Shown: positions 12,102 to 56,704 of the stretch, piece after piece
Position numbering within the stretch: position 1 is the first letter of the stretch
Layout of the letters: each line of letters opens with the position of its first letter
Source of the DNA: Zoogloea sp.
GTDB taxonomy: Bacteria > Pseudomonadota > Gammaproteobacteria > Burkholderiales > Rhodocyclaceae
DNA length: 64,000 nucleotides
Direction: 5' to 3'
NCBI RefSeq assembly: GCF_028693495.1
Contig: NZ_JAQUVG010000001.1
Span: forward strand, 49,633 to 113,632
Made by a program: the position numbers and the translations under genes
The notes under the pieces: model-generated
What the model was told of the DNA's origin: nothing
Database searches by the model: none
What the model saw: the letters and a program-made list of their open reading frames with translations, nothing else

Positions 12102-13487
12102 ATGAACATGCAAGTCAAAACCCTGACCCTGATGATTGCCGTGGGTCTGTCTGGCCTTGCCTCCGCGGCGGCCACCCCCGAAGAGATCAAGCAGCTCGGC
12201 ACTACCCTGACCCCCTGGGGGGCGATCAAGGCAGGCAATGCCGATGGCAGCATCCCGGCCTACACCGGTGGCATCGAGCCCCCGGCCAGCTACGACCCCA
12301 AGAAGCCCCAGTTCCGCCCGGATCCCTTTGCCAGCGAGAAGCCCCTGTTCTCCATCACGGCCGCCAACATGGCCAAATACGAGGACAAGCTGAGTGCCGG
12401 CCAGAAGGAGATGCTCAAGAAGTACTCCACCTACCGGATTGACGTTTATCCCAGCCACCGGACGGCCAAGTATCCCAAGTACGTCATCGACAACACCCTG
12501 AAGAATGCGGCTTCCTGCCAGCTGGCCCCCAGCCTGCTGCAACTGGCCGGCACCTGCTTCGGGGGGGTGCCCTTCCCGATTCCCAAGAACGGTTCCGAGG
12601 TGATGTGGAACCGGACGATGAAGTACGACCAGTACGCCTACCAGTCCCCGGGGCAGACCTCCACCCTGGTGGACCGCAGCGGCCGGCGCATCGAGACCGG
12701 CGCGTTCGCCTACTGGCAGACCTTCCCGACCTATGAGCCGGGCCGGACCAAACCGATTGCCGCCGACGAGATGCTGGAGTACGGCCGGGTGGACTGGACC
12801 GGGCCGACCCGCAAGGCTGGCGAGAAGCTGGTCCTGCACGACTCCGTCGACATGCAGAACGTCGGCCGCCGTTCCTGGAGCTATCTGCCGGGTCAGCGCC
12901 GGGTCAAGCTGTCCCCGGACGTGGCCTATGACACCCCCAGCCCGGCCGGTGGCGGCATCGGCACCGTGGATGACACCCAGGTCTTCTACGGCGCCCAGGA
13001 CCGCTACAACTACAAGCTGGTCGGCAAGAAGGAGATGTTCATTCCCTACAACACCTTCAAGCTCCACGACGAAAAGCAGTGCTCGGCCGACAAGGTGTTC
13101 ACCCCCAACCACCTCAACCCGGACTGCGTCCGTTGGGAGCTGCACCGGGTGTGGGTGGTGGAAGCCACCCTCAAGGAAGGCAAGCGCCACATCTACCCGC
13201 GCCGCACCTTCTACTGGGATGAGGACATCCCTGCCGTGGGCATGGCCGACAACTATGACGATGCCGGCAAGGTGTATCGGGTCACCCAGGGGCATTACTA
13301 CCCCTTCTATGAAACCACGGGCCACAACACCCATGAGTTCGTGGTCCATGACCTGAACAGCGGTGGCTATGTGCGCCAGGCCTACACGGTGGCTGGCGCC
13401 GGCATGATGACGGTGACCAAGCCGTCCGATGCCAAACCGGCGGGTTTCTATGATTCTGCCGCGCTGAGCCAGGAAGGCGTGCGCTAA
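12102..13487 (+). CDS. DUF1329 family exported protein
   Basis: Signal peptide; EEIKQLGTTLTPWGAIKAGNADGSIPAYTGG; RRTFYWDED. Confidence 0.9.
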   Translation: MNMQVKTLTLMIAVGLSGLASAAATPEEIKQLGTTLTPWGAIKAGNADGSIPAYTGGIEPPASYDPKKPQFRPDPFASEKPLFSITAANMAKYEDKLSAGQKEMLKKYSTYRIDVYPSHRTAKYPKYVIDNTLKNAASCQLAPSLLQLAGTCFGGVPFPIPKNGSEVMWNRTMKYDQYAYQSPGQTSTLVDRSGRRIETGAFAYWQTFPTYEPGRTKPIAADEMLEYGRVDWTGPTRKAGEKLVLHDSVDMQNVGRRSWSYLPGQRRVKLSPDVAYDTPSPAGGGIGTVDDTQVFYGAQDRYNYKLVGKKEMFIPYNTFKLHDEKQCSADKVFTPNHLNPDCVRWELHRVWVVEATLKEGKRHIYPRRTFYWDEDIPAVGMADNYDDAGKVYRVTQGHYYPFYETTGHNTHEFVVHDLNSGGYVRQAYTVAGAGMMTVTKPSDAKPAGFYDSAALSQEGVR

Positions 13488-39848: not shown

Positions 39849-40292
39849 ATGACTGACAAGACCGGGATGCCCTGGACCGACAACTACCTGCTGGGCTACA
39901 CCGCCATGGACGATACCCATCGGGAGTTCGTCGAGGTGGTGGACCGCATGCTGACCTGCCCCGATGCCGACCTGGCTGGCGCTCTGCGGGCGTTCATCGT
40001 TCATGCAGAGAAGCACTTTGCCGACGAGAAGGCCTGGATGGAGGCCAGCGAATTCCCGTCCACCGACTGCCACGTGGATGACCACACCGCTGTGCTGTCC
40101 TCCGCCTGGGAGGTGGAGCCCCTGGTGCAGGCCGGCAATTGCGCCATCGGCCGCGAATTTGCCATGGAGCTGGCCCGCTGGTTCCCCGGTCACGCGGATT
40201 ACCTGGATTCGGCCCTGGCCCACTGGCTGGTCAAGAAGAAGGCCGGCGGCAAACCGGTGGTGCTGCGCCGGAACGTGACCCTGGCGGATTAA
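39849..40292 (+). CDS. hemerythrin-like protein
   Basis: DDTHREFVEVVDRML...FIVHAEKHFADEKAWMEAS...CHVDDHTAVL: His/Glu pattern of hemerythrins. Confidence 0.82.
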   Translation: MTDKTGMPWTDNYLLGYTAMDDTHREFVEVVDRMLTCPDADLAGALRAFIVHAEKHFADEKAWMEASEFPSTDCHVDDHTAVLSSAWEVEPLVQAGNCAIGREFAMELARWFPGHADYLDSALAHWLVKKKAGGKPVVLRRNVTLAD

Positions 40293-42490
40293 AAACTGGC
40301 CCGCACGCTCAGGCGCAGGGTCCGTGGTTCCAGCGGGTGGACCAGCCGGCCGTCGATACCGCCGCCACAGCTGCCCGACAGGGTTTCGCTGCGGGTACAG
40401 GCGCCGCCCCAATACTCGATGTCGTTGGCCTTGCGGTCGAACAGATTGAGCACGTCCAGCGTCAGCTGAAGCCTGGGATCGATGCGATAGCCCAGTTTCA
40501 GGTTGGTCAGCAGGAAGGCCGAGGATTTTTCCTGGCCGGTTTCCTCCAGCGGATAGGCGCCCAGGTAGCGCAGGCGCACTCCGCCAAACCACTTGCCGCC
40601 GGGGTCGAGCGTGCCGCCAAGAGAGGCGCTCAGGGGAATGGCGTTGGGCACACGGGTGCCGCCCGTGTTGGCGCTGGCCTGCTTGAAGCGGGCGTAGGAA
40701 AGGGCGACATCCGCGTCGATGATCAGGCTCTGGGCGGCGGTGATGTAGTTGGACCATTCGAGGCCGTGGCGACGTGAGGCGCCTTTGGGCTCGGTGACCC
40801 CCTCGTCGCCGATGAAGACCAGCTCCGAGGCGAGGTCCATCTGCCACAGCGACAGGCCACTGCTCCAGCCCGGCAGCGGCATGGTGCGCATGCCGATTTC
40901 CGATCCCCGGGCCTTGACCAGCAGCGGAACCCGGCTGATCGCGCCGCCATCGACCGGGTTGACGGTGCTGGTCGCCCCGCGCGCATCGTTGCTGTGAAAG
41001 CCGTGCCCCCAGTTGGCGTAAAACTCGGTAGCGCCGAGCAGCGGAAAGGGGCCGAGCACAATGCCGAGCTTGGGGCTGGTCTGGCCGGCGCGTGTCTTGC
41101 CGCCGTTGCCCAGGTTGAATTCGCCGCCGGTAGCCGTGACCCTGGCGTCCACTTCGTCGTGCCGCAAGCCGACCGTGCTGCGCAGCCACGGTTGCCATTC
41201 GGTGCGGGCTTCGAGGAGAAGGCTGGCCGCTGTCTCGGTGATCTTGTCCTGCCGCACCGTGTCTGTGCGCAGCCTGTCCTCGGTGCGGTAAAGGCCGACC
41301 GAACGGATGCGGTCCTGGCGCAACTGAATGCCGGCGGTCAGCTCCGAATCCCTGAAAACCGGCCCGAGAAACCAGCTGCGACTGGCCTGGCCGCCCCAGA
41401 CGGTGCGCGCATCCGCCTGTTCGTGCTGATCACCCTGTAGGCCGTTGATGAAGCCCGAGGGGGCCGAAAACAGGTTCAGGCCGTAGTTGATGACGTAAAA
41501 GCCGGCCCTGCTTGCGCCGTCCTGGTCCGGGCGTGCCCATTCACCCGACAGGCTGTAACGATGGGTCTTGCCGCCGTCCCTGGGCGAGAGGGCGCCGTAG
41601 CGGCCGATTTCTCCGCTGTTGATGGCTCGCTGCGGCACATGCTCGGTGGCCGTCCAACTGGCCTCGTAGGCCATGGCGGTGAGGGAGAAACCCTTGGCTG
41701 CGGTGCCGTCGGAGAGGCGCAGCACGGCGTTGTGCTTTTTCAGGTTTTCCGGCTGCTGCCACGGGCCGTCGTTGCCGGCAAGCTCGAGCGCGCCGAGAAG
41801 TTGCAGGCCGCCACCGACTTCCCCGCTGCCTGCCGCCAGCGCACGGCGGTAGCCGTTCTGGCCGAGGCTGATGTCGACAAAGGGGCTGGCCAGCTGGCGT
41901 TGATAATCGATACGCGCGGCGCCGGTGGTGGCGAAATCCCCGTCCTCGGCGGCATAGACGCCCTTGCGGTATCTGAGGCTGCCAAGCAGTTCGGGGATCA
42001 GGAAATTCAGATCCATGTAGCCCTGCCCGTGAGCGTGGCTGACCATGTTCACGGGCATTCCCATGACCTGGGTGGAAAAGTCGCTGCCATGGTCGAGGTT
42101 GAAACCGCGCAGGAAATACTGGTTGGCCTTGCCGTCGCCCGAATGCTGGGTGACCACCATGCCGGGGATGGTTTCCATGACTTCAGCCGGCCGCAGCAGC
42201 GGGCGATTGGCCAGCTGTCTGGCGGTGACGGTGCCTTCGGTGGCCGAATCGGCAACGCCGATCAGATCCTGGCTGCGGGTGCTGACCGTGACCTCCTGCA
42301 GCGTCGGAACGCCCGCAGCTTGGGCGATGCCCGAGAGCGCACTGGCCACCAGGGCGGCAATGGCGGATGCGTTGCCGCGGGAAAGAGTAAGGACGGTGGC
42401 GGGCAAGGCGATTCTCCGTAGATGCAGTGCTTTGGCGTTGATCGTGCAGTGGCGGTTGGCTTTACGGTTTGTGCGCCTTGCCGGGTTCAA
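40289..42490 (-). CDS. TonB-dependent outer-membrane receptor
   Basis: Plug region (RPLLRPAEVMETIPGMVVTQHSGDGKANQYFLRGFNLDHGSDF), C-terminal LRLSVRASF; exact start uncertain. Confidence 0.88.
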   Translation of the reverse strand: MNPARRTNRKANRHCTINAKALHLRRIALPATVLTLSRGNASAIAALVASALSGIAQAAGVPTLQEVTVSTRSQDLIGVADSATEGTVTARQLANRPLLRPAEVMETIPGMVVTQHSGDGKANQYFLRGFNLDHGSDFSTQVMGMPVNMVSHAHGQGYMDLNFLIPELLGSLRYRKGVYAAEDGDFATTGAARIDYQRQLASPFVDISLGQNGYRRALAAGSGEVGGGLQLLGALELAGNDGPWQQPENLKKHNAVLRLSDGTAAKGFSLTAMAYEASWTATEHVPQRAINSGEIGRYGALSPRDGGKTHRYSLSGEWARPDQDGASRAGFYVINYGLNLFSAPSGFINGLQGDQHEQADARTVWGGQASRSWFLGPVFRDSELTAGIQLRQDRIRSVGLYRTEDRLRTDTVRQDKITETAASLLLEARTEWQPWLRSTVGLRHDEVDARVTATGGEFNLGNGGKTRAGQTSPKLGIVLGPFPLLGATEFYANWGHGFHSNDARGATSTVNPVDGGAISRVPLLVKARGSEIGMRTMPLPGWSSGLSLWQMDLASELVFIGDEGVTEPKGASRRHGLEWSNYITAAQSLIIDADVALSYARFKQASANTGGTRVPNAIPLSASLGGTLDPGGKWFGGVRLRYLGAYPLEETGQEKSSAFLLTNLKLGYRIDPRLQLTLDVLNLFDRKANDIEYWGGACTRSETLSGSCGGGIDGRLVHPLEPRTLRLSVRASF

Positions 42491-42794
42491 CCAGGATCAG
42501 CTGGCCGGTCTTCGGGTCGCGAAAGACTTCGCCGACCCGATCGAAGCCGGCGCCGGCCTGGCCCATGCCGTCGGCGGGGCGTTCGATGGACTGGCCCTTA
42601 TCTACGGGTTTCGGCGGGGCCAGCGCGCCCTGGGTGCTGGCCGCAAGCGCGGCGAGCAGGCCGCAGGCGAACACCAGCATCACGTCCACCAGATTGACCA
42701 GGCTGGCGCGGGGGTCTTCATCCCGGTCGTCGAAGCGGGCGTCGAGGCGCGAATACAGGCGCAGGCGCTTGCGCGGTGGCTGGGCGGATTTCAT
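42462..42794 (-). CDS. DUF2149 (ExbD-like) membrane protein
   Basis: DEDPRASLVNLVDVMLVFACGLLAALAAS; sits between ExbB-like and TonB receptor genes. Confidence 0.78.
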   Translation of the reverse strand: MKSAQPPRKRLRLYSRLDARFDDRDEDPRASLVNLVDVMLVFACGLLAALAASTQGALAPPKPVDKGQSIERPADGMGQAGAGFDRVGEVFRDPKTGQLILVEPGKAHKP

Positions 42795-43228
42795 TCGTCA
42801 CCCTCCAGGGCTTCAAGCATTTCTTCGTACCAGCGCCGCCGCAGCTTGCCGACCACGAGGCCACCGATGCCGGCGACGAGGCCCAGTACGGTGGCGTCGA
42901 AGGCGACCGTCACGGCGCTGGCAAGCTCGGACGGATTGCCCTGTCCCAGGGCGGCAAGGCCCGGTCCGAGGGGAATGATGGTGGCCATCAGGCCAAGCAT
43001 CGGCGGGATGCGGGCGAGCAGGTCGGCACGTTCAAGACGGTGGCGCGCAACACGCTGGATGAGCTGCAGATCGCCCGTTGCGGCGAGCCGCCTGAGGCCC
43101 CAGAAGCGCTCGCCGAAGGCCAGGCCGGCTTCGGCCAGGGCAATGGCGCAGGCCACGATGAGTGCGAAAAGAGCAGGGGTGAGCAGCCAGGTAACGGCCT
43201 GGTGCAGCCAGGAGAGAGCATCGTTCAT
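42791..43228 (-). CDS. MotA/TolQ/ExbB proton-channel family protein
   Basis: MLGLMATIIPLGPGLAALGQGNPSELASAVTVAFDATVLGLVAGIGGLVVGKLRRRWYEE. Confidence 0.85.
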   Translation of the reverse strand: MNDALSWLHQAVTWLLTPALFALIVACAIALAEAGLAFGERFWGLRRLAATGDLQLIQRVARHRLERADLLARIPPMLGLMATIIPLGPGLAALGQGNPSELASAVTVAFDATVLGLVAGIGGLVVGKLRRRWYEEMLEALEGDE

Positions 43229-46200
43229 CGGGGTTTTACCGGGTTGTTGCGGGTGGAGGAAAAGCGCCGGCCACTCCAGGCGAGGCCGAGCAGGAAAATC
43301 AGCGGGGCCAGCGACACTGCGGCCGGCGGGATGCCTGTCGCGGCGGGCGCCAGGCGGGGCTTGAGTTCGTAGTAGCGGTCGGGCGCGGGCGGCGGGGTGT
43401 CCGCGGGCGCTTCAGCGGGCGTGTCGACTTTTGCGCCGCCCTGCGCCGGGGCGGGGGCCGCCGGCGTGCGGCCCGATGCCGGCGTTATCAAAGGGGAGGC
43501 GGCCACCGGGGCCGCCGGTGCCAGGTTCGCTCCTTGGGCGCGGGCGAGGGTGACGCCCAGGGCTTCGGCATCGGCTGCATCGATCTGCGGTTTGAGCCAG
43601 TTCCACATGGGGTGATTGGGCGCTGCGTGACCACTGCCGGGCAGGCCGTTCCTGGCCACCAGCCGGGCCAGCTCGCCCCCCATCTGGCGGATGGTGGCTT
43701 CGTCGGCCTTCCAGAAACCCTTTTCGGCGGCGACCATGAAGATGGCCAGCATGTGGGCCTTCACGTGGGCGTTCTGGCCTTGCTCGAGAAAGCGCGGCAG
43801 ACCGAGCTTCTGCTTGTCGTCGAAGTAGGTTTCCTTGACCTCGTCCCAGGCCCATTGCTTGATCAGGTCGGGTCGGGTGACCTGCCAGCCCCACAGGTTT
43901 TCGAGAAACTCCTGGCCCATCGTGCGAGCGCCGGCGTAGCCGTGCTTCATCAGCGGCTTGAGCCAGGCCGGGTTGAGGTAGCGGCCGCGGAGCTCGGACA
44001 GCAGCGCGGTGGCCAGCGGTTCAACCTCCGGGTGCGCCGCATCGGCGTGCTGCAGGATCAGGGCTTCCGGCAGCCGGCCGGTGAGGGTTTCGATGCCGAC
44101 CGACATGCCACCGAGGTAGTCGAAGGCGTCGTTGTTGTCGAGCAGGCCATAGAGGTTGCTGGCCCGCCCGTGATAGCTGCGGGTGACGCCGGCCAGGGCC
44201 GTCTCGAAGGCCTGATGCGCTGCGTCGCCGCTGGCGTCGAGTCCATAGGCGTGGCCCATGCGCTTGAGGTAGATGCGGCCGAGTTCGTCGCGCTCTTTCC
44301 AGGCGCCGGATCTTTCGGCAAGGCGATTGACACCGGTGCTGTAGGCGCCCGGCGGGTCACCAAAAATACGTGTGGCCGCCGCACGTCCGGCTTCGGGCAG
44401 GCTGAGGCCGGCCTTGGCAAGGAGGTCGATGCGCTTCAGCCAGGCCGCGGCAACAAGGTTGTCAGCGAGGGGCTGACGGCCGTGCTCGATGCCCTTGCCA
44501 GCCGGGGCGAGGGCGGCGGCGAGCGCGTCCGTGAGGTCCGGGCGGATGTCGAGCAGGAGGTCGGCGGAGGCGGCAAGGGCCAGTAGGCCGGCGCGGTCCA
44601 CTTGGCGGAGCAGGTTGGGGTAAAGGTCGCGGAACAGGCCCGAGGTGGTGACGATCACGTCGCGCCGGGGCTTGCCGTCCAGCACGCGCACGTCGGTGAC
44701 GATGCCGCGGGCGTTCCATACCGGCTCGGTGCCCAGCAGCGAGAGGCAGAAGGCGACCATCGCGCCTTCGTCGCGCACCGCGTCGGAGGCCCACAGGATC
44801 ACCGCGTCGCTGTCGACGCCGGCGTCTTTCCTGCGCGGGCGGGCCGTGGCCTTGTCGGCCAGTGTGGCCCCCAGGGCATAGCCGAGGCGGGTGGGCAGCA
44901 GGTCGCCATCCACCGCATGAAAGTTGCGCCCGGTGGGCAGGGCGTCGGGTGAACGCAGTGGGTCGTTGCCCTTGCCCGGTGCCACGAAGCGTCCGGCAAG
45001 GCCAGCCAGCAGGCCTTCCATTTCGAGGCGCGGCGAGATCGCCAGCTTTTCGGCGATGGCCGCATCAAAGCCGTCGGCCACCTGGCTCATGGAGTCGGCC
45101 ATCAGCTTGAGGGATTCGGCACTCCAGTCCTGCCCGAAAACATGCAGGCCATGGGGCATGAATTTTTCCTGGAGCTTGGTGAGGTAGTGCCCGATCTCGT
45201 GGGCGAGGAGATCGTCGTCGGCGTCCTCGAAACCGATGCCGCGCACTTCGAGGACGTCGGCCATCGAGGCTTCCAGCTCGGCCTTCAGGTTGAGCGCGAT
45301 GACCTGCGTCCGCATGGTTGCGGCGGCCTGGGCCTTGAGGCTTTCGCTGTTGGCGGCTTCAAAACTTTCCACCACCTGACGCAGCTCCAGCAGCTTGTCG
45401 TAGAGGGGCGTGGCCGACAGCGGCGGGGTGAGGTGATCGACGATCACGGCGAGCCCCCGGCGCTTGGCCTGAATGCCTTCGCCCACGCCGTCCACGATGT
45501 AGGGGTAGACCCCGGGCAGGTCGGCGGCAATCAGGCTGGGGTAGTCGTCGGCAGTGAGTCCGACGGCTTTACCGGGCAGGAACTCGTAGGTGGAATGGCG
45601 GCCCAGATGGACCACGGCATCGGCACGAAAGCGGTCGCGAATCCAGTGATAGAAGGCCAGGTATTGATGCGGTGGCGCCACGCTGGTGTTGGCGTGCAGC
45701 AGCTCTTCATCCACCTCCCAGCCCCGTGGCGGCTGCGGGCCGACGAAGATCTTGCCAAACACGAGGCCCGGCACCAGCAGCTTGCCGTCGGCCACCATCA
45801 CCTTGCCCGGGGTGTGTCCCCAGCCCCGCAGGCCTTCAACGCCATGGCCGGCGAGGCGCCAGGCCAGGGACGACAGGCTGGAGCAGCGACGCCGGGGCTG
45901 ATCCGCCAGACAGTCCCGGTAGCCGGCTTCCAGCTCCTTCAGACCCGTGATGGTCTCCTGGCGCTTCGGGTGGTCGGCGCCTTCGGCGAGGTGGTGGAGC
46001 TCCTTCATGACCGATTCGACCCGCTTGCGGCCGACGCTGCGCTCCGCAACCTGCTCGGCTTCCAGCACTTCGGCGTGCAGCCGGCCCAGCGGGCCGGACA
46101 CCATCTCGCCCTGCACCCGCTCGGGCAGGGCGGCAAACCAGTGGCGGTAGTCGGCGGCGCTCACGCTGTTCACGTCCCGCGCCAGCTCGTGCAGGGCGGT

Positions 46201-47610
46201 CTTGTCTTCCGGCAGGTTCACGCCCCGGGCCATGATCCGGTCGAGCAGGGCTTCCGGCGAGGCCGGCAGCTCGCCGGTGTCGTAGCCCTCTGCCTTGAGA
46301 CGCTGCAGTACGGCGAACAGGGATGCAGGCACGTCCAGGTTGTCGGCGCCGATGTTCTGCCGGCCCGGCGGGTGGTTGTAGTAGATGATCGCCAACCGCT
46401 TGTTGGCATTGGCTTTGGCGCGCAAGGCCTGCCAGCGGGCGGCGCGGGCCACGAGGCGCTGGATTTCGACCCCGATGGCTTCGGTGCGGCGCAGCTCGAG
46501 GCCGGTCAGGGGGTCGATGCGACTGGCGCCGACGGCCGACACGACGATGGGCTGGCCGATGCCCTGGAGTTCCGGCAGGGCCACCCGGTATTGCACCGAA
46601 TCCACCGGGAGCCCTTCCGGCGACAGGCGCCATTGGGTTGCGCTGCGGTCGGTCAGGCGGATGGCCTTGAGAATGGGGATGTCCAGCTTCTTGAACGCTT
46701 CGGTAACGGCCTCCCGGTTTTCGGCCGCACCGACGACGAAATCCTGCACCACCACCAGCGCGGCCGGTTTGGCCGGGGCCAGCAGTTCGGGCAGGCGCTC
46801 GATGGCCTCCCGCGAGACGCTGCCCCAGCGGGTCAGCACTTCGGCGCAGGGCAAACCCTGGCGGCGGGATTCGCCACAGATCGCGGCGGCGGTGGCGGAT
46901 TCGGTGTTGGACAGGTCGAGCACCGCCAGGGCCGGGCCGGCGGGCAGCAGGCGGGCATTCCAGGCGGCCTCGTCGCGACGTTCGGCACCCTCGACCCGCA
47001 GACGCAGCACGCTCTCCCGCTGCGCCGGGGGCAGCGGCTTGCCGTCGAGCAGGTGGCCGAACAGACGCGCCACGTTGTCGGCGCCGTCCGCCTGCCACAC
47101 CCGACGTGCGGCGAGCCACGCGGCTGCGGCCGGGTGCTGTGCGGCGGCTTCGAGGGCGTCGGCCGGGGGCTGCTCGGCCGTCAGTTGGCGCAGGGTTTCG
47201 GCGGGAAAGCCCTCGAGCCGGCCCAGCCGGCTGCGGCTTTGCAGGTTGAGGCGCTGTTCGCCGTTCAAGGCCAGCACCGTGGCAGCGCGACTGGCGGGCA
47301 GGGCGTTGATCAGCCGGCGTGCCGGGTCGCCGAAGGCCGAGGCGATGAATACCGAATCTGCATCCAGCCACTGGCGCAGCTGTGCATCGCTGGCCACCAT
47401 GATCTGGTTGGGCGTGCGCAGGACGATGCGGTCGCGCGGATGGCTGGCCAGATGCTGACGTGCCGCTTCGACGGCGGCTGGAGCGGCACGATCGGTGACG
47501 ACACCGAAGAGTGTTGCCGCATGGGCCGGCAGACTGCCCAGCAGTGCAAACGCCAGCAGCAGCCCCGCGCAAAGGACTGCCTTACGAGCCGTTGATTCTT
47601 GTCCTGCCAT
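43225..47610 (-). CDS. CobN/HmuS-like chelatase-family protein with signal peptide and C-terminal TM anchor
   Basis: MAGQESTARKAVLCAGLLLAFALLGSLPAHA; NHPPGRQNIGADNLDVPASLFAVLQRLKAEGY; VVHLGRHSTYEFLPGK; C-terminal PAAVSLAPLIFLLGLAWSGRRF. Start moved from 47907 to ATG at 47610. Confidence 0.88.
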   Translation of the reverse strand: MAGQESTARKAVLCAGLLLAFALLGSLPAHAATLFGVVTDRAAPAAVEAARQHLASHPRDRIVLRTPNQIMVASDAQLRQWLDADSVFIASAFGDPARRLINALPASRAATVLALNGEQRLNLQSRSRLGRLEGFPAETLRQLTAEQPPADALEAAAQHPAAAAWLAARRVWQADGADNVARLFGHLLDGKPLPPAQRESVLRLRVEGAERRDEAAWNARLLPAGPALAVLDLSNTESATAAAICGESRRQGLPCAEVLTRWGSVSREAIERLPELLAPAKPAALVVVQDFVVGAAENREAVTEAFKKLDIPILKAIRLTDRSATQWRLSPEGLPVDSVQYRVALPELQGIGQPIVVSAVGASRIDPLTGLELRRTEAIGVEIQRLVARAARWQALRAKANANKRLAIIYYNHPPGRQNIGADNLDVPASLFAVLQRLKAEGYDTGELPASPEALLDRIMARGVNLPEDKTALHELARDVNSVSAADYRHWFAALPERVQGEMVSGPLGRLHAEVLEAEQVAERSVGRKRVESVMKELHHLAEGADHPKRQETITGLKELEAGYRDCLADQPRRRCSSLSSLAWRLAGHGVEGLRGWGHTPGKVMVADGKLLVPGLVFGKIFVGPQPPRGWEVDEELLHANTSVAPPHQYLAFYHWIRDRFRADAVVHLGRHSTYEFLPGKAVGLTADDYPSLIAADLPGVYPYIVDGVGEGIQAKRRGLAVIVDHLTPPLSATPLYDKLLELRQVVESFEAANSESLKAQAAATMRTQVIALNLKAELEASMADVLEVRGIGFEDADDDLLAHEIGHYLTKLQEKFMPHGLHVFGQDWSAESLKLMADSMSQVADGFDAAIAEKLAISPRLEMEGLLAGLAGRFVAPGKGNDPLRSPDALPTGRNFHAVDGDLLPTRLGYALGATLADKATARPRRKDAGVDSDAVILWASDAVRDEGAMVAFCLSLLGTEPVWNARGIVTDVRVLDGKPRRDVIVTTSGLFRDLYPNLLRQVDRAGLLALAASADLLLDIRPDLTDALAAALAPAGKGIEHGRQPLADNLVAAAWLKRIDLLAKAGLSLPEAGRAAATRIFGDPPGAYSTGVNRLAERSGAWKERDELGRIYLKRMGHAYGLDASGDAAHQAFETALAGVTRSYHGRASNLYGLLDNNDAFDYLGGMSVGIETLTGRLPEALILQHADAAHPEVEPLATALLSELRGRYLNPAWLKPLMKHGYAGARTMGQEFLENLWGWQVTRPDLIKQWAWDEVKETYFDDKQKLGLPRFLEQGQNAHVKAHMLAIFMVAAEKGFWKADEATIRQMGGELARLVARNGLPGSGHAAPNHPMWNWLKPQIDAADAEALGVTLARAQGANLAPAAPVAASPLITPASGRTPAAPAPAQGGAKVDTPAEAPADTPPPAPDRYYELKPRLAPAATGIPPAAVSLAPLIFLLGLAWSGRRFSSTRNNPVKPR

Positions 47611-47775
47611 TCTGCCTCCACGTGCGGGAACATCGGCCGTGGCGCCAGGGCAGGGGGACAAGACGGAACGAAAGGACATGCCGGAATCATGAGAACCGGC
47701 AATACGGCGGACAGAAGTCGGACGTTTTCGCTCGCCACGCCCACACCCCGGGGCACAGCCAAACTCATGTCCTCG

Positions 47776-47970
47776 GGCCGGTCTTCTGGCTCGCCGTCGT
47801 TCTTCCCTATCCGCCTTCCCGGGCAAAAATGGCCCAGTGGCATGTATGGATGGAGTCGTCAGGCTTACAGCAGCGGGGGCTGCGCCGGAATGGTCGGAGA
47901 GAAACAACTCGCCAACGTCACCGGACTTCCCGTTTAGCCCTTCCGCGAAAGCGGATCGGGCACCCGGAGG
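47776..47970 (-). ncRNA. cobalamin (AdoCbl-type) riboswitch
   Basis: On minus strand: GGGTGCCCGATCC ... ACGGGAAGTCCGGTGACG ... TCCGGCGCAGCCCCCGCTGCTGTAAGC ... TGCCACTGGGCC ... GGGAAGGCGGATAGGG ... AGCCAGAAGACCGGCC (B12 box). Confidence 0.93.
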
Positions 47971-48170
47971 ATCAAGGGCGCGAGGTTACGGGGAAACGGG
48001 TGATGACGGCAAGTCGTCGTGAGATCGGGCTGCCCGCTTGCGCCGTCTGGCCCGTGATCACGGAGGCCTGCCAGAAAGCTTGGTGGCTTGTGAGCAGCTC
48101 GAGCACTCGACCTGCCGATTGAGGCAAGCGCTTGGTAAGACACTGGTATAGGGCTTCCAGTCAGTTGCCG

Positions 48171-48458
48171 TTAAAGAGTGCTGGGCCAGTTGCGCGCCGT
48201 ATGAACCACGGCAAGAACCGTCACGGTCCCTTCTTGCTGTTGATAGACAACCAAGTACGGTAGCCGGCTTATTACCAGTTCACGGGTGTCTTCGATGATG
48301 CCCTTGCGGCCAGCCTCCGCATGTTGTGCAAGAAGTTTGACCTGCTCCCGAATGGCCTTCACCACGCGGCTTGCTGCGGCAGGGCTGTCCTGGCTGATGT
48401 GTGCTCGAATCTCTTTCAGGTGCTCAACGGCCGGAAGCGCCCAGAGAATCCGGCTCAA
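48171..48458 (-). CDS. RelE/ParE-family toxin
   Basis: ILWALPAVEHLKEIRAHISQDSPAAASRVVKAIREQVKLLAQHAEAGRKGIIEDTRELVISRLPYLVVYQ. Confidence 0.88.
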   Translation of the reverse strand: MSRILWALPAVEHLKEIRAHISQDSPAAASRVVKAIREQVKLLAQHAEAGRKGIIEDTRELVISRLPYLVVYQQQEGTVTVLAVVHTARNWPSTL

Positions 48459-48703
48459 GGCGTCAAGCCTTCCTCACGGTCTAGCCGGTCGAACAGTGCG
48501 TCAAGCTCGTCGTCGGTCACGACCTGGCCTTGCCTTGCTGCCTCAAGCCCGGCTTTCACCCGCCGCAGGTACTCGGCTTGCCAATGGACGTAACTGCTCA
48601 AAGCGGCCGCGGCGAGGTCTTCGTCAGTGCGGCGCGTTTCGGTGGCGATACTGTGCAGCAGGGCTTTGTCCTGCTCGCTGAGGGTGACTGTCAGGTGTGC
48701 CAT
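48455..48703 (-). CDS. ribbon-helix-helix-type antitoxin
   Basis: MAHLTVTLSEQDKALLHSIATETRRTDEDLAAAALSSYVHWQAEYLRRVKAGLEAARQGQVVTDDELDALFDRL; start moved to 48703; overlaps toxin by 4 bp. Confidence 0.83.
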   Translation of the reverse strand: MAHLTVTLSEQDKALLHSIATETRRTDEDLAAAALSSYVHWQAEYLRRVKAGLEAARQGQVVTDDELDALFDRLDREEGLTP

Positions 48704-48997
48704 GGTTGCTCCCGGCGTGGCGTTCCCTGAATGATAACGCGTCGGGCGCCTGGCTCCATTTTTGGCAGCTTTCCGGCTCGGGCTGGGGCGGATGGCGCCC
48801 TGGTGGGAGGACTTCAAGCCTTCTAAAAATCAGAAAGGCGTCCAGCAGTGAAGCGGGTTTTCAAAGGGGTCGGCGGAAGCGTTTGTAGAAGGATTTTCGC
48901 CTAAGCGCCTGTTTTGGTGGAAAGAGCGCCAGATTGAGGCAACACACCCCGGCGAGGGGAGTGCTTGGCTTTTTTACGCGAGCGGAGTAGGCTTCAA

Positions 48998-49027
48998 ACA
49001 AACAATCAAATTTGTTTGTAAAACAAA
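48998..49027. promoter_or_regulatory. AT-rich operator-like element, copy 7
   Basis: ACAAACAA-TCAAAT-TTGTTTGT (8-bp arms, 6-bp spacer) followed by AAAACAAAC. Confidence 0.65.
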
Positions 49028-49059
49028 CTACCTGGCAGCGCTGGAGGAGAAACGTATTC

Positions 49060-50679
49060 ATGGATAGCTACGACTACATCGTCGTTGGTGCCGGCTCGGC
49101 CGGCTGTGTGCTGGCCAACCGCTTGTCGGAGGATGGCCGGAGCCGGGTCCTGCTGCTGGAGGCGGGAGGCGACAACCGCAGCCCACTCGTTTCCATGCCC
49201 AAGGGGTTTGCCAAGCTGGTGGCCATGCCGGCCCATGCCTGGCATTTTCCGGTCCAGCAGCCACGCCTGCCGGGCCAGCCAGCGGGCGAGATGTGGGTGC
49301 GCGGCAAGGGGCTGGGCGGCTCGAGCGCGATCAACGGCATGATCTATGTCCGTGGCCAGCCCGAGGACTACGAGGACTGGGCGGCTGCGGCGGGTTCTGA
49401 CTGGAGCTGGGCCAGCATGAAGCAGGTGTTCCGCACCCTCGAAGATCACGAGTTGGGGGCGGATGAGCTGCGCGGTGTAGGTGGGCCGGTCAAGGTCAGC
49501 CCTGGCAAGTTCCGCTACCCGGTGAGCGAAGCCCTGGTCAAGGCGGGTGAAGAGATGGGCCTGCCCCGCAAGGAGGATTTCAACCGGGAGGATCAGGAAG
49601 GGGTGGGTTATTACGCCCACACCATCCACAAGGGACGTCGCTGGAGTTCGGCCAAGGCCTTCCTCGAGCCGGCCATGGGCCGGCCCAACCTGACCGTGCT
49701 GACCGGTGTTCAGGTGGATCGGGTTCTTTTCGAGGCAGGCCAGGCAGTCGGCGTTGCAGCCCGCCGCTCGGGTGAGTCCGTTCGTTTCCGCTGTCATGGA
49801 GAGGTGATCCTGTCCGGCGGTGCGATGTTGTCCCCCAAGATCCTGCAGCTGTCGGGCATCGGCCCTGGTGCGGTCCTGCAGCAGGCGGGCATTCCAGTAC
49901 TTGCCCATTCCCCCGACGTGGGCCGGCGGATGCGCGAGCATCTGGGCTTCCTGCTGCCCTTCCGGCTCCGCAACGACAAGGGACTCAACCATCGTTTCCG
50001 GGGCCTCGGCCTGGTCAGGAGCGTGCTGGAGTATTACCTGACGGGCGGTGGCCCGATGGCCAGCGGACCTTTTGAGGTGGGGGCCTTCGTGAAGACCTCT
50101 CCCGGGGTGGATCGCCCCGATGCCCAGCTGTACCTGTCCGCGTTCACCTATCCCCGCAGCGATGACAATTTCCCCGTGCCCGATGGCGTCGAGGACCAGC
50201 CCGGCATCACGGCCTACGGCCAGCTCCTGCGCCTGACCAGCGAAGGGGAGATGAAGGTGACCGGTGCCGATCCGGAGCGCCCCATGGATGTCGCCCCCAA
50301 CTGGCTGTCCACTGAAGAAGACTGCCGCGCAGCCATCGACATGTTCCGCTACATGCGCGAGTACATGCGCCGTCCGGCGCTGTCCCGTTACGTGGGTGAG
50401 GAGCTGGGGCCGGGGGTGAAGTGCGAGAGCGACGAGGACATCCTCCACCTGTTCCGCCAGGCGTCCTTGTGCGGTACCCATGCGGTGGCCTCCTGCCGGA
50501 TGGGCCGGGATGCGGACGCGGTTGTGGACGAGCGCCTGCGGGTGCGTGGAGTTCGGGGTTTGCGGGTGGCCGACTGCTCGGTGATGCCCGCCCCCATCTC
50601 CGGTAACACCAACGGTCCGGCCATGGCCCTGGGCTGGCAGGCGTCCAGCCTGATCCTTGCCGATCGTGGGCAGGGCTGA
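49060..50679 (+). CDS. GMC-family FAD-dependent oxidoreductase (choline dehydrogenase-like)
   Basis: [63 protein letters not shown]. Confidence 0.95.
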
Positions 50680-50682
50680 ATC

Positions 50683-51681
50683 ATGACTGAACGTAACTTG
50701 AAGGTCGTACTGGGCAGCCGTCCTGAAGGAAAGCCCACGGTGGACAACTTCCGCGTGGAGGAGGGGCCCTTGCCGGTCGCTGCCGAGGGTCAGGTGCTGG
50801 TGCGCAACCAGTGGCTGTCCATCGATCCCTACATGCGTGGCCGGATGATGGACATCCGCACCTATGCCGAGCCGGTGGCCCTGGGGGATGTGATGGTGGG
50901 GGATACGGCCGGTGTGGTTGTCGCGTCCCGCCATCCGGACTTTGCGCCGGGTGATCCGGTGGCGGCCTACCTGGGCTGGCAGCGCTTCGGGGTGGCCGAG
51001 GGGGGCGCCCTGCGCCGGGTGGATCCCCGCATTCCCTTGTCGGTGAGCCTGGGCGCCGCGGGCATGCCCGGCGTGACCGCCTGGGTCGGTCTGCTTGACC
51101 TGTGCCAGCCGAAGGCCGGTGAGACGGTGGTGGTCAGCGCTGCGTCGGGGGGCGTTGGCAGCGTGGCAGGACAGCTGGCCCGCATCGCTGGCTGCCGGGT
51201 CGTCGGTATTGCCGGCGGCGCGGACAAGTGTCGTCATGTCACGGAAGCGCTGGGCTTCGATGCCTGTCTGGACTACCGGGCCGAGGATTTCCGCCAGCAG
51301 CTCAAGGCGGCGGTGCCCAAGGGTATCGACTGCATCTTCGACAACGTGGGCGGCCCGGTGCTGGAAGCCCTGATCGGACGCATCAATCCCTTTGCCCGGG
51401 TGACCCTGTGCGGAGCCATCTCCGAGGTGGACAACCCCAGCCCGACGGGCCTGCGCCGCCTGCTGCCGCTGATTGTCAATCGGGTCAAGCTGCAGGGCTT
51501 CATCGTCGGTGATCACCTGGAGCGCTGGCCGGTGGCCATCGCCGACCTCTCCGGTCACGTCGCCGCCGGTCGTATCCGATATCACGAAACCCTTGCCGAG
51601 GGGCTGGAAGCCGCGCCCCAGGCCCTGCTGGATCTGCTGGCCGGGCGCAGCCTGGGCAAGCAGCTGGTCCGCATCCCCTGA
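50683..51681 (+). CDS. MDR-superfamily NADP-dependent oxidoreductase (paralogue of 29328-30365)
   Basis: NQWLSIDPYMRGRM; SAASGGVGSVAGQLARIAGCRVVGIAGGADKC; IFDNVGGPVLEAL. Confidence 0.93.
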   Translation: MTERNLKVVLGSRPEGKPTVDNFRVEEGPLPVAAEGQVLVRNQWLSIDPYMRGRMMDIRTYAEPVALGDVMVGDTAGVVVASRHPDFAPGDPVAAYLGWQRFGVAEGGALRRVDPRIPLSVSLGAAGMPGVTAWVGLLDLCQPKAGETVVVSAASGGVGSVAGQLARIAGCRVVGIAGGADKCRHVTEALGFDACLDYRAEDFRQQLKAAVPKGIDCIFDNVGGPVLEALIGRINPFARVTLCGAISEVDNPSPTGLRRLLPLIVNRVKLQGFIVGDHLERWPVAIADLSGHVAAGRIRYHETLAEGLEAAPQALLDLLAGRSLGKQLVRIP

Positions 51682-51703
51682 ACCTTCACCGGGAAAACTC
51701 TCC

Positions 51704-52852
51704 ATGACCACTCCGTTCGACGTCCTGTTCAAGCCCCTCCCCATCGGCAATGTCACCTTGAAGAACCGTCTGGTCATGGCTCCCATGACCCGTAACCGCT
51801 CCGGCCTGGATGGGGTGCCGACCGACCTCAACGTGCTGCATTACCAGCAGCGCGCCAGCGCCGGACTGATCGTCAGCGAGGGCGTCTATCCCAGCGAGCT
51901 CGGCAAGGGCTACCTGTTCTCGCCAGGCCTGTGCACTGCCGCTCACGTGGCCGGCTGGCGCAAGGTCACCGATGCAGTGCATGGGGCCGGCGGAGCGATT
52001 TTTGCCCAGATCATGCACGTGGGCCGCCTGTCCGATCCGCTGCTGCTGAACGGCGCCCAGCCGGTGGCACCGTCGGCCGTGCAGCCCGACCCGACGGCCC
52101 GCCACTATACGGTCACCTGCCCGCGCCCCAAGCGCGCCTACCCGCTGCCCCGTGCGCTGGCCACTGACGAGGTCTACGGGGTGATCGAGGACTACCGGCG
52201 CAGTGCCGCGCTGGCAAGGGAGGCCGGTTTCGACGGAGTCGAAATCCATGCCGCCAGCGGCTATCTGCCGATGCAGTTCCTGTCCACCAACACCAATCTG
52301 CGCAGCGACGAGTTCGGCGGCAGTCTGGAAAACCGTGCCCGCTTCCTGCTGGCCATCGTGGATGCGATTGCCGCCGATCAGGGCGCCGGTTTCGTGGCGG
52401 TGAAGCTGTCGCCGGGGTGGACTTTCCACAACGTCTTCGATGACGACGCGCCGGCCACCTATTCGCATGTGACCCGGGAGCTCTCGAAGCGCCACATCGC
52501 CTACCTTCAGGTAGGCAACTACGGCATGGACTGGGATGTGTACGGCACCCTGCGCCCGCTCTTCGACGGCCCCTTCATGACCGTCGCCAGCTTCACCCGC
52601 CAGAGCGCCGCCGACCTGATCGCCCGCGGGGGCGCCGACCTGGTGGGCTTCGGCCAGGCTTTCATCGCCAATCCGGATCTGGTGGAGCGCTTCCGCAACG
52701 GCTGGCCCATCAACCGCCCCGACATTGCCACCTATTACAGCCAGGGGGCAGAGGGTTACACCGACTACCCCTTCCACGGCCACAGCACCCGCGACGACCT
52801 GCTGCCGACCGACGCGCCGCTGGTGCCGGTGTCTGCCGACGTGACCGGTTGA
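51704..52852 (+). CDS. Old Yellow Enzyme-family alkene reductase
   Basis: LFKPLPIGNVTLKNRLVMAPMTRNRS; GVEIHAASGYLPMQFLSTNTNLRSDEFGGSLENRARF. Confidence 0.93.
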   Translation: MTTPFDVLFKPLPIGNVTLKNRLVMAPMTRNRSGLDGVPTDLNVLHYQQRASAGLIVSEGVYPSELGKGYLFSPGLCTAAHVAGWRKVTDAVHGAGGAIFAQIMHVGRLSDPLLLNGAQPVAPSAVQPDPTARHYTVTCPRPKRAYPLPRALATDEVYGVIEDYRRSAALAREAGFDGVEIHAASGYLPMQFLSTNTNLRSDEFGGSLENRARFLLAIVDAIAADQGAGFVAVKLSPGWTFHNVFDDDAPATYSHVTRELSKRHIAYLQVGNYGMDWDVYGTLRPLFDGPFMTVASFTRQSAADLIARGGADLVGFGQAFIANPDLVERFRNGWPINRPDIATYYSQGAEGYTDYPFHGHSTRDDLLPTDAPLVPVSADVTG

Positions 52853-52862
52853 GGAGGCAGCC

Positions 52863-53426
52863 ATGAGCGTGCGCGCCCCGACTCACGAGGAACTGGCCGC
52901 CAAGTGGGCCATCACCGAAGTCATCCACCGCTACTGCCGCGGCCTCGACCGGATGGACAAGGCCCTGGCCCTGTCGTGCTGGCACCCCGGGGGCACCGAC
53001 GACCACGCGCCCCTCTATGCCGGCAGCGCCGAGGGCTTCATCGACTGGCTGTGGCCGGTGCATGCCGCCATGAACGTCACCCGCCACGTGGTCAGCAATA
53101 CCCTGATCGACCTGCGCGGCCAGGAGGCAGGGGCCGAGACCTACTGGTCCCTGGTGCTGCAGGTGGCGCGGGGCGGTGAGACCCACGACATCGTCGCCGG
53201 CGGCCGCTATCTGGACCGCTTCGAGTGCATTGACGGGGTGTGGGCGATCCGCCACCGCCAGTCGGTGGTGGACTGGAACCGGGTTGAGCCGGTACGCAGC
53301 ACCCTGGCCGACTTTGCCGCCACGCCACTGCTCGACGTGAATAACCCGGAAGTGCCGGCCACGCTGCCGCGGCGCGATGCGGACGATTTCTCGTATTCCG
53401 TGCTCGGGCATATCGAACGGCACTGA
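52863..53426 (+). CDS. SnoaL/NTF2-fold family protein
   Basis: AKWAITEVIHRYCRGLDRMDKALALSCWHPGGTDDHAP. Confidence 0.82.
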   Translation: MSVRAPTHEELAAKWAITEVIHRYCRGLDRMDKALALSCWHPGGTDDHAPLYAGSAEGFIDWLWPVHAAMNVTRHVVSNTLIDLRGQEAGAETYWSLVLQVARGGETHDIVAGGRYLDRFECIDGVWAIRHRQSVVDWNRVEPVRSTLADFAATPLLDVNNPEVPATLPRRDADDFSYSVLGHIERH

Positions 53427-53452
53427 GCTCCACTGCACAGGGTAACCGCACC

Positions 53453-54712
53453 ATGACGACAGCCGCTCCCATCAGTTTTGCCGACCCGGAAATCCGCCGC
53501 TGCCCTCACGCCGCCTACGCGCAGCTGCAGGCTGAGAGCCCGGTGTATTTCGACGCGGGCACCGGCTTTCATGTGGTGACCCGCTACGCCGACATCGCCT
53601 GGGTCAATGCCCACCCGGAACTGTTTTCCAACATGACCAGCCAGGTGTTCGACCGGAGTCATTCACCGGTGGCCGCCGAGGTGGCCCGGCGCTATGCGGA
53701 GCGGGGCTTTCCGCCCCGGCACACCCTGGTCTCCAACGATCCGCCCTCCCACGGCCAGTATCGGGCGCTGGTGGACCAGGCCTTCGCCCGCAAGAACGTG
53801 ATCGGCCTGGAGCCGTCCATCCGGGCGGTGGTGGATGAACTGATCGACGAGCTTGCCGGGCGCGGACGCATCGAGTTCTTCCAGGATTTTGCCGTGCGCC
53901 TGCCCATGTACGTGATCACCCAGGAACTTGGGCTGCCGCGGGAAGACTGGCCGCAGCTCAAGCTCTGGTCCGATGCGGCCATCGAACAGATCAACCCCAA
54001 CCTGGCCCCGGCGCGGGAGCTGGAGCTGACCGACCTGCTCATCGACATGCAGTGTTACCTGCACCGCCATGCCATGGCCTACCGGGCTGCGCCGGGGCCG
54101 GGCCTGCTGTCGGCGGTGGCCAATGCGCGCATCGATGGGCGCCTGCTCGAGGACGGCGAGCTCGTCAACATCGCCACCCAGCTGATGGTGGCCGGCAATG
54201 AGACCACCACCACCGCCCTTGGCTCGGCCCTGTGGTCCCTGCTGGAGGCGCCGGCCCTGCATGCGCAGCTGCGCGCCGATCCGTCACGCATTTCCGGTTT
54301 CGTCGAGGAGGTGCTGCGCCTGCACTCCCCGGTGCCCTACATCTACCGGCTGGTGAAGGCGGATACCGAGCTGGCCGGTGTCCCGCTTGCAGCCGGGGCC
54401 GTACTGATGCTGGCCTACGGCGCCGGTAACGTGGACCCGGGCAAGTTCGAATGCCCCGAGCGCCTTGACCCCGAACGCCGTAATGCCCGCGAGCACATGA
54501 CCTTCGGCAAGGGCATCCACTTCTGCATCGGGCACATGCTGGCCCGCACCGAGCTGCGCATCGCCCTCGAGCGGCTGCTGTGCCGCCTGCCGGATCTGGC
54601 CCTCGACCCCACAGCCCCGCCGCCCCGCTGGTCGTCCAGCTTCCAGGCCCACACCCTGGAGCGCCTCGACCTCGTATTCACACCGGTTTCCGCCGGCAAG
54701 GAGCCGTCATGA
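53453..54712 (+). CDS. cytochrome P450
   Basis: AGNETTTTALGSALW I-helix; FGKGIHFCIGHMLARTELRIALERLL heme-binding motif. Confidence 0.96.
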   Translation: MTTAAPISFADPEIRRCPHAAYAQLQAESPVYFDAGTGFHVVTRYADIAWVNAHPELFSNMTSQVFDRSHSPVAAEVARRYAERGFPPRHTLVSNDPPSHGQYRALVDQAFARKNVIGLEPSIRAVVDELIDELAGRGRIEFFQDFAVRLPMYVITQELGLPREDWPQLKLWSDAAIEQINPNLAPARELELTDLLIDMQCYLHRHAMAYRAAPGPGLLSAVANARIDGRLLEDGELVNIATQLMVAGNETTTTALGSALWSLLEAPALHAQLRADPSRISGFVEEVLRLHSPVPYIYRLVKADTELAGVPLAAGAVLMLAYGAGNVDPGKFECPERLDPERRNAREHMTFGKGIHFCIGHMLARTELRIALERLLCRLPDLALDPTAPPPRWSSSFQAHTLERLDLVFTPVSAGKEPS

Positions 54713-55176
54713 GCGCCACCCCCGAGTTGATTGCCGATCGTCTGGCCATCAGCGACGTCATCATCAACTACGCCACCGCGCTGGATACCCGCGACTGGGG
54801 CTTGCTGCGCTCGATCCTGACCGACCGGGTGGCCATCGACTACACCAGCTTCGATCCGGACCTGGATCTGGAGATGGATGCCAGCGAGTGGGTTCATCGG
54901 GTCCGCGGGCTGGCCGGTTTCGACGCCACCCAGCATCTGAGTACCAATCACCGTCACGTCATCGACGGTGATCAAGCAACCTGCATTTCCTACATGCATG
55001 CCAGCCATTTCCTGACCCACGCCGGGGCCGACCACGTCTGCGTCCTGTATGGCTACTACACCAGCCAGCTGCTGCGCACTGCCGCCGGCTGGAAGCTGCG
55101 TAAGGTCAAGCTGACCATCACTGCCCGCCACGGCGACGCCCGGGTGTTCGAATGGGCCTTCAGCAAGATTCCCTGA
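54709..55176 (+). CDS. SnoaL/NTF2-fold family protein
   Basis: LAISDVIINYATALDTRDWGLLRSILTDRVAIDYTSF; ATGA overlap with P450. Confidence 0.82.
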   Translation: MSATPELIADRLAISDVIINYATALDTRDWGLLRSILTDRVAIDYTSFDPDLDLEMDASEWVHRVRGLAGFDATQHLSTNHRHVIDGDQATCISYMHASHFLTHAGADHVCVLYGYYTSQLLRTAAGWKLRKVKLTITARHGDARVFEWAFSKIP

Positions 55177-55270
55177 GGGCGCCCGCGCAGGAGGCGCCGG
55201 CATGCCGATGATTCACTCTACAGAAGGGCGATGTTCTTCGCCCCTGGACAACACAAGAAGGAGACACAAC

Positions 55271-56704
55271 ATGGAATGGGATTACGACGTAATCATTGTG
55301 GGCGGCGGCGGTGCCGGCCTGGCGGCGGCATTGATGGCCCACCAGCAAGGCGCCCGCTGCATGGTCATCGAGGCGGATGGCAGGCTGGGCGGCGCCACGG
55401 CCCAGTCGGGCGGGGTGTTCTACGCCTGCGGGACCAGCGTGCAGCGGGCCGCGGGCATCGCCGACGATACCCCGGACGATCTCTACGACTACCTGATGAC
55501 CCTCAACCGCTGGAAGCTGCGGCCCGACCTGATCCGTTACTACGCCGATCATTGCGGGCCGGCGCTGGAGTGGCTGATTGAACTGGGCAGCGAGTTTCCC
55601 AAGGAATGGCTGGTCAAGTCCGGCGTGGATAGCGTGGCCCGGGGCCATTCGAGCCAGGGGGCGGGTTCCGGCATCGCCGATGCGCTGATCAACGCGGCCG
55701 GCGCCAAGGGCATCGACACCGCCCTGGGAACCCGGGTGGAGGCGCTGTTGTTCGAGGACGGCCGGGTCGTCGGTGTCAGGGCCCTGGGGACCGAGCTGCG
55801 TGCCCCGGTGGTGGTGGTCACCACCGGTGGTTTCGGCAACAATCCGGAGATGCTCCAGCGACTTTACCCATCCTCCTGGCATGAGGGCTGGACCTGGGCC
55901 GTGCACAAGGACGTGCCCTTTGTGCAGGGCGACGGCATCACCCTGGCCGAGCAGGTGGGTGCCGGCGTGGTCGGCCACGACACCGGCCTGGTGCTGCCCA
56001 CCTCGGGTTTCAGCCGCTCACTGGAGGCCTTCCTGCCGCCCTGGATCATCGCGGTCAACAAGGAGGGCCGCCGCTTCATGTCGGAGCTGTCGCCCTACAG
56101 CGTGTGCGGTTACCTGCTCAACGAGCAGACCGAGCGGCGCGCCTGGGCCATCTTCGACGAGAAGGCCCTGGTGGAAGCCAGCACCAACACCAAGTACCTG
56201 GACCCCTACAACGCGGGTATCAGCATTCCCACCTGGGAAGAGCCCACCCTGCGCGCCCAAGTGAAGACCGGCCGGGTCAAGGTGGCCGACAGCCTGCAGG
56301 CCCTGGCGGCGCAGGTAGGCATTGATGGTCTGGCTCTGGAAGAGACCGTGGCCCGCTACAACGCCGATTGCGATGCCGGCGGCGATTTCCAGTTTTTCAA
56401 GCAGGCCCCGGCCTATTTCCCGATCCGCCAGGGGCCCTACTACGCGGTGGAGATCCGTTCCGCGATCATTGGCCTGACGGCGGCAGGGCTGGACATCGAC
56501 AAGCAGGCCCGGGTGCTCGATGTCCACCAGCGTCCGATCCCTGGTCTGTACGCCGCAGGCGAGGTGCTCGGCTGCTTCCACGGGGAGCGCTATGGCGGCG
56601 GCGGCCTCTCCATCGGTAATGCAGTGGTCTTCGGTCGTCTTGCCGGCATCGAGGCCGGCCGGGCGGCCCTGGCCCTGCGGGCACAGGATGAGGTGGTGGC
56701 ATGA
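55271..56704 (+). CDS. FAD-dependent oxidoreductase (KstD/fumarate-reductase family; resembles 35460-36917)
   Basis: DYDVIIVGGGGAGLAAALMAHQQGARCMVIEADGRLGGATAQSGGVFYACG; GLYAAGEVLG. Confidence 0.9.
   Translation: MEWDYDVIIVGGGGAGLAAALMAHQQGARCMVIEADGRLGGATAQSGGVFYACGTSVQRAAGIADDTPDDLYDYLMTLNRWKLRPDLIRYYADHCGPALEWLIELGSEFPKEWLVKSGVDSVARGHSSQGAGSGIADALINAAGAKGIDTALGTRVEALLFEDGRVVGVRALGTELRAPVVVVTTGGFGNNPEMLQRLYPSSWHEGWTWAVHKDVPFVQGDGITLAEQVGAGVVGHDTGLVLPTSGFSRSLEAFLPPWIIAVNKEGRRFMSELSPYSVCGYLLNEQTERRAWAIFDEKALVEASTNTKYLDPYNAGISIPTWEEPTLRAQVKTGRVKVADSLQALAAQVGIDGLALEETVARYNADCDAGGDFQFFKQAPAYFPIRQGPYYAVEIRSAIIGLTAAGLDIDKQARVLDVHQRPIPGLYAAGEVLGCFHGERYGGGGLSIGNAVVFGRLAGIEAGRAALALRAQDEVVA

Follow-up and report, generated by a model that had tools for sequence, protein, structure and literature searches.

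A complete corrinoid-sensing device, and not a B12 box alone, stands on the minus strand ahead of a CobN-like operon in the 64,000-nucleotide stretch of Zoogloea sp. DNA analysed here (the window), since a full-length cobalamin riboswitch aptamer is accompanied there by a P13/L13 hairpin. We read it, with a probability of about 0.85, as a standard corrinoid riboswitch in the 5' leader of a BtuS-type operon, through which B12 would repress the operon. The features are as follows:

47759-47982, minus strand: cobalamin riboswitch aptamer, full length (RF00174, cmscan)
47791-47776, minus strand: B12 box AGCCAGAAGACCGGCC, in the 3' part of the aptamer, where it aligns with the Rfam consensus
47759-47734, minus strand: P13/L13 hairpin, stem GCTGTGCCC/GGGCGTGGC, loop CGGGGTGT, with L13 CGGGG complementary to L5 CCCCG
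47611-47733, minus strand: leader from P13 to the start codon, with the Shine-Dalgarno GGAGG at 47619-47615
43225-47610, minus strand: CobN-like (BtuS-type) protein, 1461 aa (PF02514, E 2.3e-242)
42791-43228, minus strand: ExbB/MotA/TolQ-like protein, 145 aa (PF01618 MotA/ExbB, 4.7e-8)
42462-42794, minus strand: DUF2149 protein, 110 aa, one membrane helix (PF09919, 3.5e-9)
40289-42406, minus strand: TonB-dependent receptor, about 705 aa, presumed TTG start (PF00593/PF07715)

The Rfam 15 scan of the 64 kb window returned a single gathering-level match, RF00174 from 47982 to 47759 on the minus strand, covering model positions 1-189 with 105.5 bits (E = 2.3e-25), and a whole-genome search recovered the same aptamer at E 2.9e-27. 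The first-pass annotation had proposed a cobalamin riboswitch on this strand, and the Infernal comparison bore it out, the score exceeding the gathering cut-off of 31.5 bits by 74 bits over the full length of the model. Its placing of the B12 box about 165 nt upstream of the CobN-like start also held (box at 47791-47776, ATG at 47610, 165 nt). The extent first given, 47776-47970, took in most of the aptamer but was too short at both ends, the aptamer occupying 47982-47759 and the regulatory hairpin reaching as far as 47734.

The loop of this hairpin, CGGGGTGT, can pair with L5 (CAGCCCCCGCTG), and in other corrinoid riboswitches the L5-L13 kissing loop is required for regulation (PMC10653944). 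The window thus resembles the btuB/metE type described there in its full aptamer, its B12 box and a P13/L13 CGGGG loop complementary to L5, but differs in the position of P13, which precedes the start codon by about 125 nt and is not beside the ribosome binding site. Of 88 riboswitches from related loci, 73 have a P13/L13-type hairpin at fixed spacing, 20-36 nt past the B12 box, against 2.3 on average and 7 at most in dinucleotide shuffles; as many of these loci are related to one another, the 88 are not independent cases. Moreover, the 81 P13 hairpins detected comprised 51 distinct stem pairs, so that the stems had changed and yet were still paired. The hairpin test is the informative one here, since complementarity between L5 and the sequence that follows, taken by itself, barely exceeded that in shuffles (5.4 versus 4.9).

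Among the 80 related loci that were collected, nearly all of which hold the CobN-ExbB-DUF2149 core, 61 have a riboswitch upstream in the same orientation, directly before the CobN-like gene in 40 and before a receptor or another gene leading into the CobN-like gene in the other 21; a recheck of seven loci with Rfam confirmed the pattern search in every case. In the tree, from which L034 was left out (no riboswitch in the sequence at hand) and to which L093 was added as a reference in an unlabelled row, riboswitches were present throughout the betaproteobacterial group and lacking in the Pseudomonas/Azotobacter and Nitrospirales groups. The neighbours of the core in the relatives include btuC, btuD, cobB/cbiA, cbiB, cbiM, a corrin methylase and cbiX. 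Together with the conserved kissing-loop hairpin and the riboswitch at 61/80 related operons, these btu and cob neighbours support, at the level of sequence, the earlier prediction that the operon responds to B12 status. Two further arrangements were seen in this set. In L085 (7214-7819), L086 (7112-7717), L058 and L061, riboswitches occur as opposite-strand pairs, one for the CobN-like operon and one for a divergent TonB receptor; in L012 (411-1225), L014 (412-1227) and L042 (2-1026), the riboswitch is preceded, at a distance of about 6.5 kb, by another ExbB-DUF2149 pair, which suggests a tandem BtuS operon in some Zoogloea.

On the model of the experimentally studied members, binding of the corrinoid cofactor would bring L5 and L13 into the kissing contact, this would stabilise P13 and operon expression would fall; when corrinoid is scarce, the operon would be on. 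We infer the sign of this regulation, since activating corrinoid riboswitches exist as well (PMC10653944). As for the step that would follow P13, a search of the leader for an intrinsic terminator after the hairpin found none. The Shine-Dalgarno GTGGAGGCAG before the ATG at 47610 is kept in other Zoogloea loci, and in the window's own leader, folded from P13 onward, it is sequestered; over 26 leaders its pairing was no stronger than in shuffles (p = 0.43), and sequestration as a conserved feature was accordingly rejected. A weak C-over-G bias past P13 (60 of 81 leaders, as a raw count) could fit Rho-dependent termination. The same Shine-Dalgarno backs ATG 47610 as the start of the CobN-like gene; the 1560-aa open reading frame listed for it begins inside the aptamer and was discarded.

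The four genes of the operon are closely packed and end at a hemerythrin gene on the opposite strand (39849-40292). The order CobN-like, ExbB-like, DUF2149 and TonB receptor proposed in the first pass was recovered, with matches to PF02514, PF01618, PF09919 and to the receptor plug and barrel. The N-terminus of the CobN-like protein reads as a signal peptide, MAGQESTARKAVLCAGLLLAFALLGSLPAHA, and its C-terminus as a hydrophobic membrane segment with a basic tail, both by reading of the sequence and not by a predictor. The motifs HxGRHSTYEF and LYGxxDNNDAFDYLGG are nearly invariant in the 79 aligned relatives, the corresponding motifs taking HVGKHG-LEW and DS(D/N)DY forms in two canonical CobN proteins and HFG(T/A)HG and LSLDHxxEFMGG in HmuS (PMC12583661); we add HxGRHS and DNNDAFDYxGG as a putative third active-site signature. 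The ExbB-like gene is found in nearly all related loci. In the DUF2149 protein, the helix carries an Asp within NLVDVMLVF, an ExbD-like motif, which is invariant in 40/40 and in 82/82 aligned sequences and close to the TPLIDVMLV of the host genome's ExbD proteins. The PF02472 (ExbD) profile did not match this protein, hhalign of DUF2149 with ExbD gave a probability of 18.7 over 20 columns only and the fold model reached a pTM of 0.25, values too weak for DUF2149 to be taken as a proven ExbD.

The receptor is not BtuB-like. It scored 19.4 bits against the BtuB equivalog TIGR01779 (cut-off 599.7) and grouped in a clade of its own, away from the BtuB of the host genome; by fold comparison its best matches were PqqU/YncD, FyuA and Fiu, with BtuB at rank 44, and a search of the PDB for its sequence relatives found none. 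Its cargo may for this reason be other than cobalamin. Within its own clade, B12 riboswitches stand close before the receptor gene in L018, L019, L027 and L050. In Z. oleivorans (L010), a second cobalamin riboswitch (13235-13434, 117.7 bits) lies between DUF2149 and the receptor; this segment is missing in the window (42406-42462), and L011 has an unrelated short-repeat-rich stretch in its place. Since the segment is absent, the window receptor would depend on the one riboswitch at the head of the operon, unless an unrecognised promoter serves it.

The host genome (3.5 Mb, 179 contigs, completeness given as 100), which among named relatives comes closest to Zoogloea oleivorans (CobN-like protein, 96%), contains three cobalamin riboswitches according to the whole-genome search, including that of the window. 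The second leads btuB-btuC-btuD and adjoins cobU, with cobT and cobS recognised from the sequence only; the third leads cbiZ, then a carbon-nitrogen hydrolase domain. On host contig C3 (L008, 5579-7498), the CbiZ and carbon-nitrogen hydrolase domains behind this third riboswitch share one reading frame, an unusual combination. There are four B12-binding domain matches over the cut-off, and the window protein is the single CobN homologue of the genome. CbiC/CobH (PF02570) was sought in the draft of 179 contigs and not found, which makes the host look like a corrinoid salvager, and the cob cluster of a relative was likewise absent from this genome. The absence of CbiC is not certain, because the assembly is in 179 contigs and smaller than those of several close Zoogloea that have CbiC (4.7-5.8 Mb). 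CbiC is missing from 40 of 50 operon-bearing genomes and from 30 of 39 riboswitch-bearing ones, so that a role in ring making or cobalt supply would not fit most hosts; as the remaining 9/39 riboswitch-bearing genomes have it, the system is not confined to salvagers.

With odds that we put a little below even, the operon would be part of a corrinoid salvage regulon, combining import by the receptor, ring or metal handling by the CobN-like protein and an ExbB-like/DUF2149 motor. The TonB receptor would carry a substrate into the periplasm, where the membrane-anchored CobN-like protein would bind a corrin-type ring, or remove or insert its metal, and the ExbB-like/DUF2149 pair would work as a proton-driven motor, either for the receptor or for the chelatase. 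A more specific form, which we consider rather unlikely, is that BtuS-ExbB-DUF2149 is a proton-driven periplasmic corrin chelatase, exchanging or removing the metal of imported corrinoids in B12 salvagers; the ExbB/ExbD-like motor would then take the place that the ATP-driven partners CobST and ChlID have beside the cytoplasmic relatives. Such a reading is compatible with the Asp that is invariant in the DUF2149 membrane helix and with the putative third active-site signature (HxGRHS, DNNDAFDYxGG).

It is improbable, though still to be weighed, that the operon serves cobalt acquisition, the receptor importing a cobalt chelate and the CobN-like protein releasing its cobalt in the periplasm to supply de novo synthesis of B12, which would account for the control by B12. 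The best folds of the receptor, metal-chelate or PqqU-type receptors and not BtuB, would suit this, as would locus L012, where a second riboswitch, cbiM for cobalt uptake, a corrin methylase and cbiX come after the core, and the example of HmuS, a CobN-type fold able to remove a metal (PMC12583661). However, the host has neither CbiC nor the relative's cob cluster, the 30/39 riboswitch-bearing genomes without CbiC would have little use for the cobalt, and the sole CbiM-like gene of the host sits among electron-transfer-flavoprotein and acyl-CoA dehydrogenase genes.

Another possibility, quite remote in our judgement, is an HmuS-type heme dechelatase operon brought under B12 control. The window operon shares with the hmu operon (PMC12583661, PMC10100974) its architecture of receptor, CobN-like, ExbB-like and a small membrane protein of HmuV/DUF2149 type, hmu-like operons with cobalamin riboswitches have already been noted (PMC10100974), HmuS (9d26) is among the PDB matches and the equivalent of the catalytic His-538, a residue common to the whole superfamily, is kept, invariant, within HLGRHS. 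The second HmuS signature, LSLDHxxEFMGG, is however replaced by LLDNNDAFDYLGG in the window protein, Asp stands at the position of His-1209 in 79/79 relatives, neither HmuY nor HmuT was seen, and the riboswitch and the neighbours point to B12 and not to iron or heme. That the operon encodes a biosynthetic cobaltochelatase (CobN) and that ring synthesis is what the riboswitch controls is hardly credible in spite of the strong PF02514 match and the many such genes annotated CobN, as the protein falls below every NCBIfam CobN and BchH cut-off (TIGR02257, 514.9 versus 822.05), has motifs unlike canonical CobN, an apparent signal peptide and a C-terminal membrane segment, and is encoded beside ExbB, DUF2149 and receptor genes in a genome lacking CbiC/CobH, and as a producer among the relatives has cbiX beside its CobN-like gene.

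Since neither the curated CobN scores nor the HmuS active-site motif is reached, the window protein is, as judged from its sequence, a periplasmic-type CobN relative, neither biosynthetic CobN nor an HmuS heme dechelatase. It agrees with BtuS, the B12-regulated CobN-like proteins that PMC6460266, citing Rodionov et al. 2003, describes as a third type related to CobN, with predicted export and membrane anchoring; both features are read here from the sequence ends. B. fragilis BtuS1 and BtuS2 are likewise CobN-related, with the same predicted export and anchoring; the Bacteroides proteins tested so far act in heme-iron use, whereas the clade of the window is riboswitch-controlled and has btu and cob neighbours in the relatives. 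The Pseudomonas aeruginosa operon PA1922-PA1925 (PMC4542158) is similar in uniting a receptor, a CobN-like and an ExbB/ExbD-type gene, but unlike that of the window it is Zur-linked and induced by zinc shortage, with no riboswitch reported in PMC4542158. A search for Zur-like boxes upstream of the related loci showed no excess (14 loci versus 15 shuffled regions, at no more than 3 mismatches).

The first-pass annotation had also remarked that the operon lies among catabolic genes. A GMC oxidoreductase and others do adjoin it, but that flank has a history different from that of the cassette. Between the window and L011, identity is 93-95% over the segment 48058-40291, which starts shortly before the riboswitch and ends at the stop codon of the receptor gene, and about 81% over the flank 48932-56421. 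Where residues are identical, the codons agree as well in 87.5% of cases in the CobN-like gene and in 60.9% in the gene for the GMC oxidoreductase of the flank, so that the high identity of the cassette goes beyond mere protein conservation. Given about 94% identity in the cassette against about 81% in the flanks, it is likely, on these comparisons, that the operon was exchanged between Zoogloea lineages as a unit, riboswitch included. Carriage on plasmids was dropped as a cause of the exchange, as only one plasmid record aligns over the greater part of the CobN-like protein, with 44.5% identity. The window also holds a ParE/RelE-type toxin gene with a small upstream ORF, a likely antitoxin (48171-48817), which separate the cassette from the syntenic flank; the toxin gene is apparently absent from L011. 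In L010, a tRNA gene (7393-7465) lies directly upstream of the Z. oleivorans cassette, where the flank differs from that of the window.

According to the accounts cited above, the riboswitch class and the BtuS-type operon are both already described; what is new here is the group-wide kissing-loop hairpin, the proposed third active-site signature, the apparent salvage setting and a cassette that was probably exchanged whole. As a riboswitch it is unremarkable; it matters as a pointer, which ties a large and often misannotated family of CobN-like proteins to the salvage of corrinoids, and not to heme, zinc or the making of B12, in genomes mostly without the corrin ring pathway, and thereby makes the role of these proteins testable in culturable strains of Zoogloea, Massilia and Methylobacillus.
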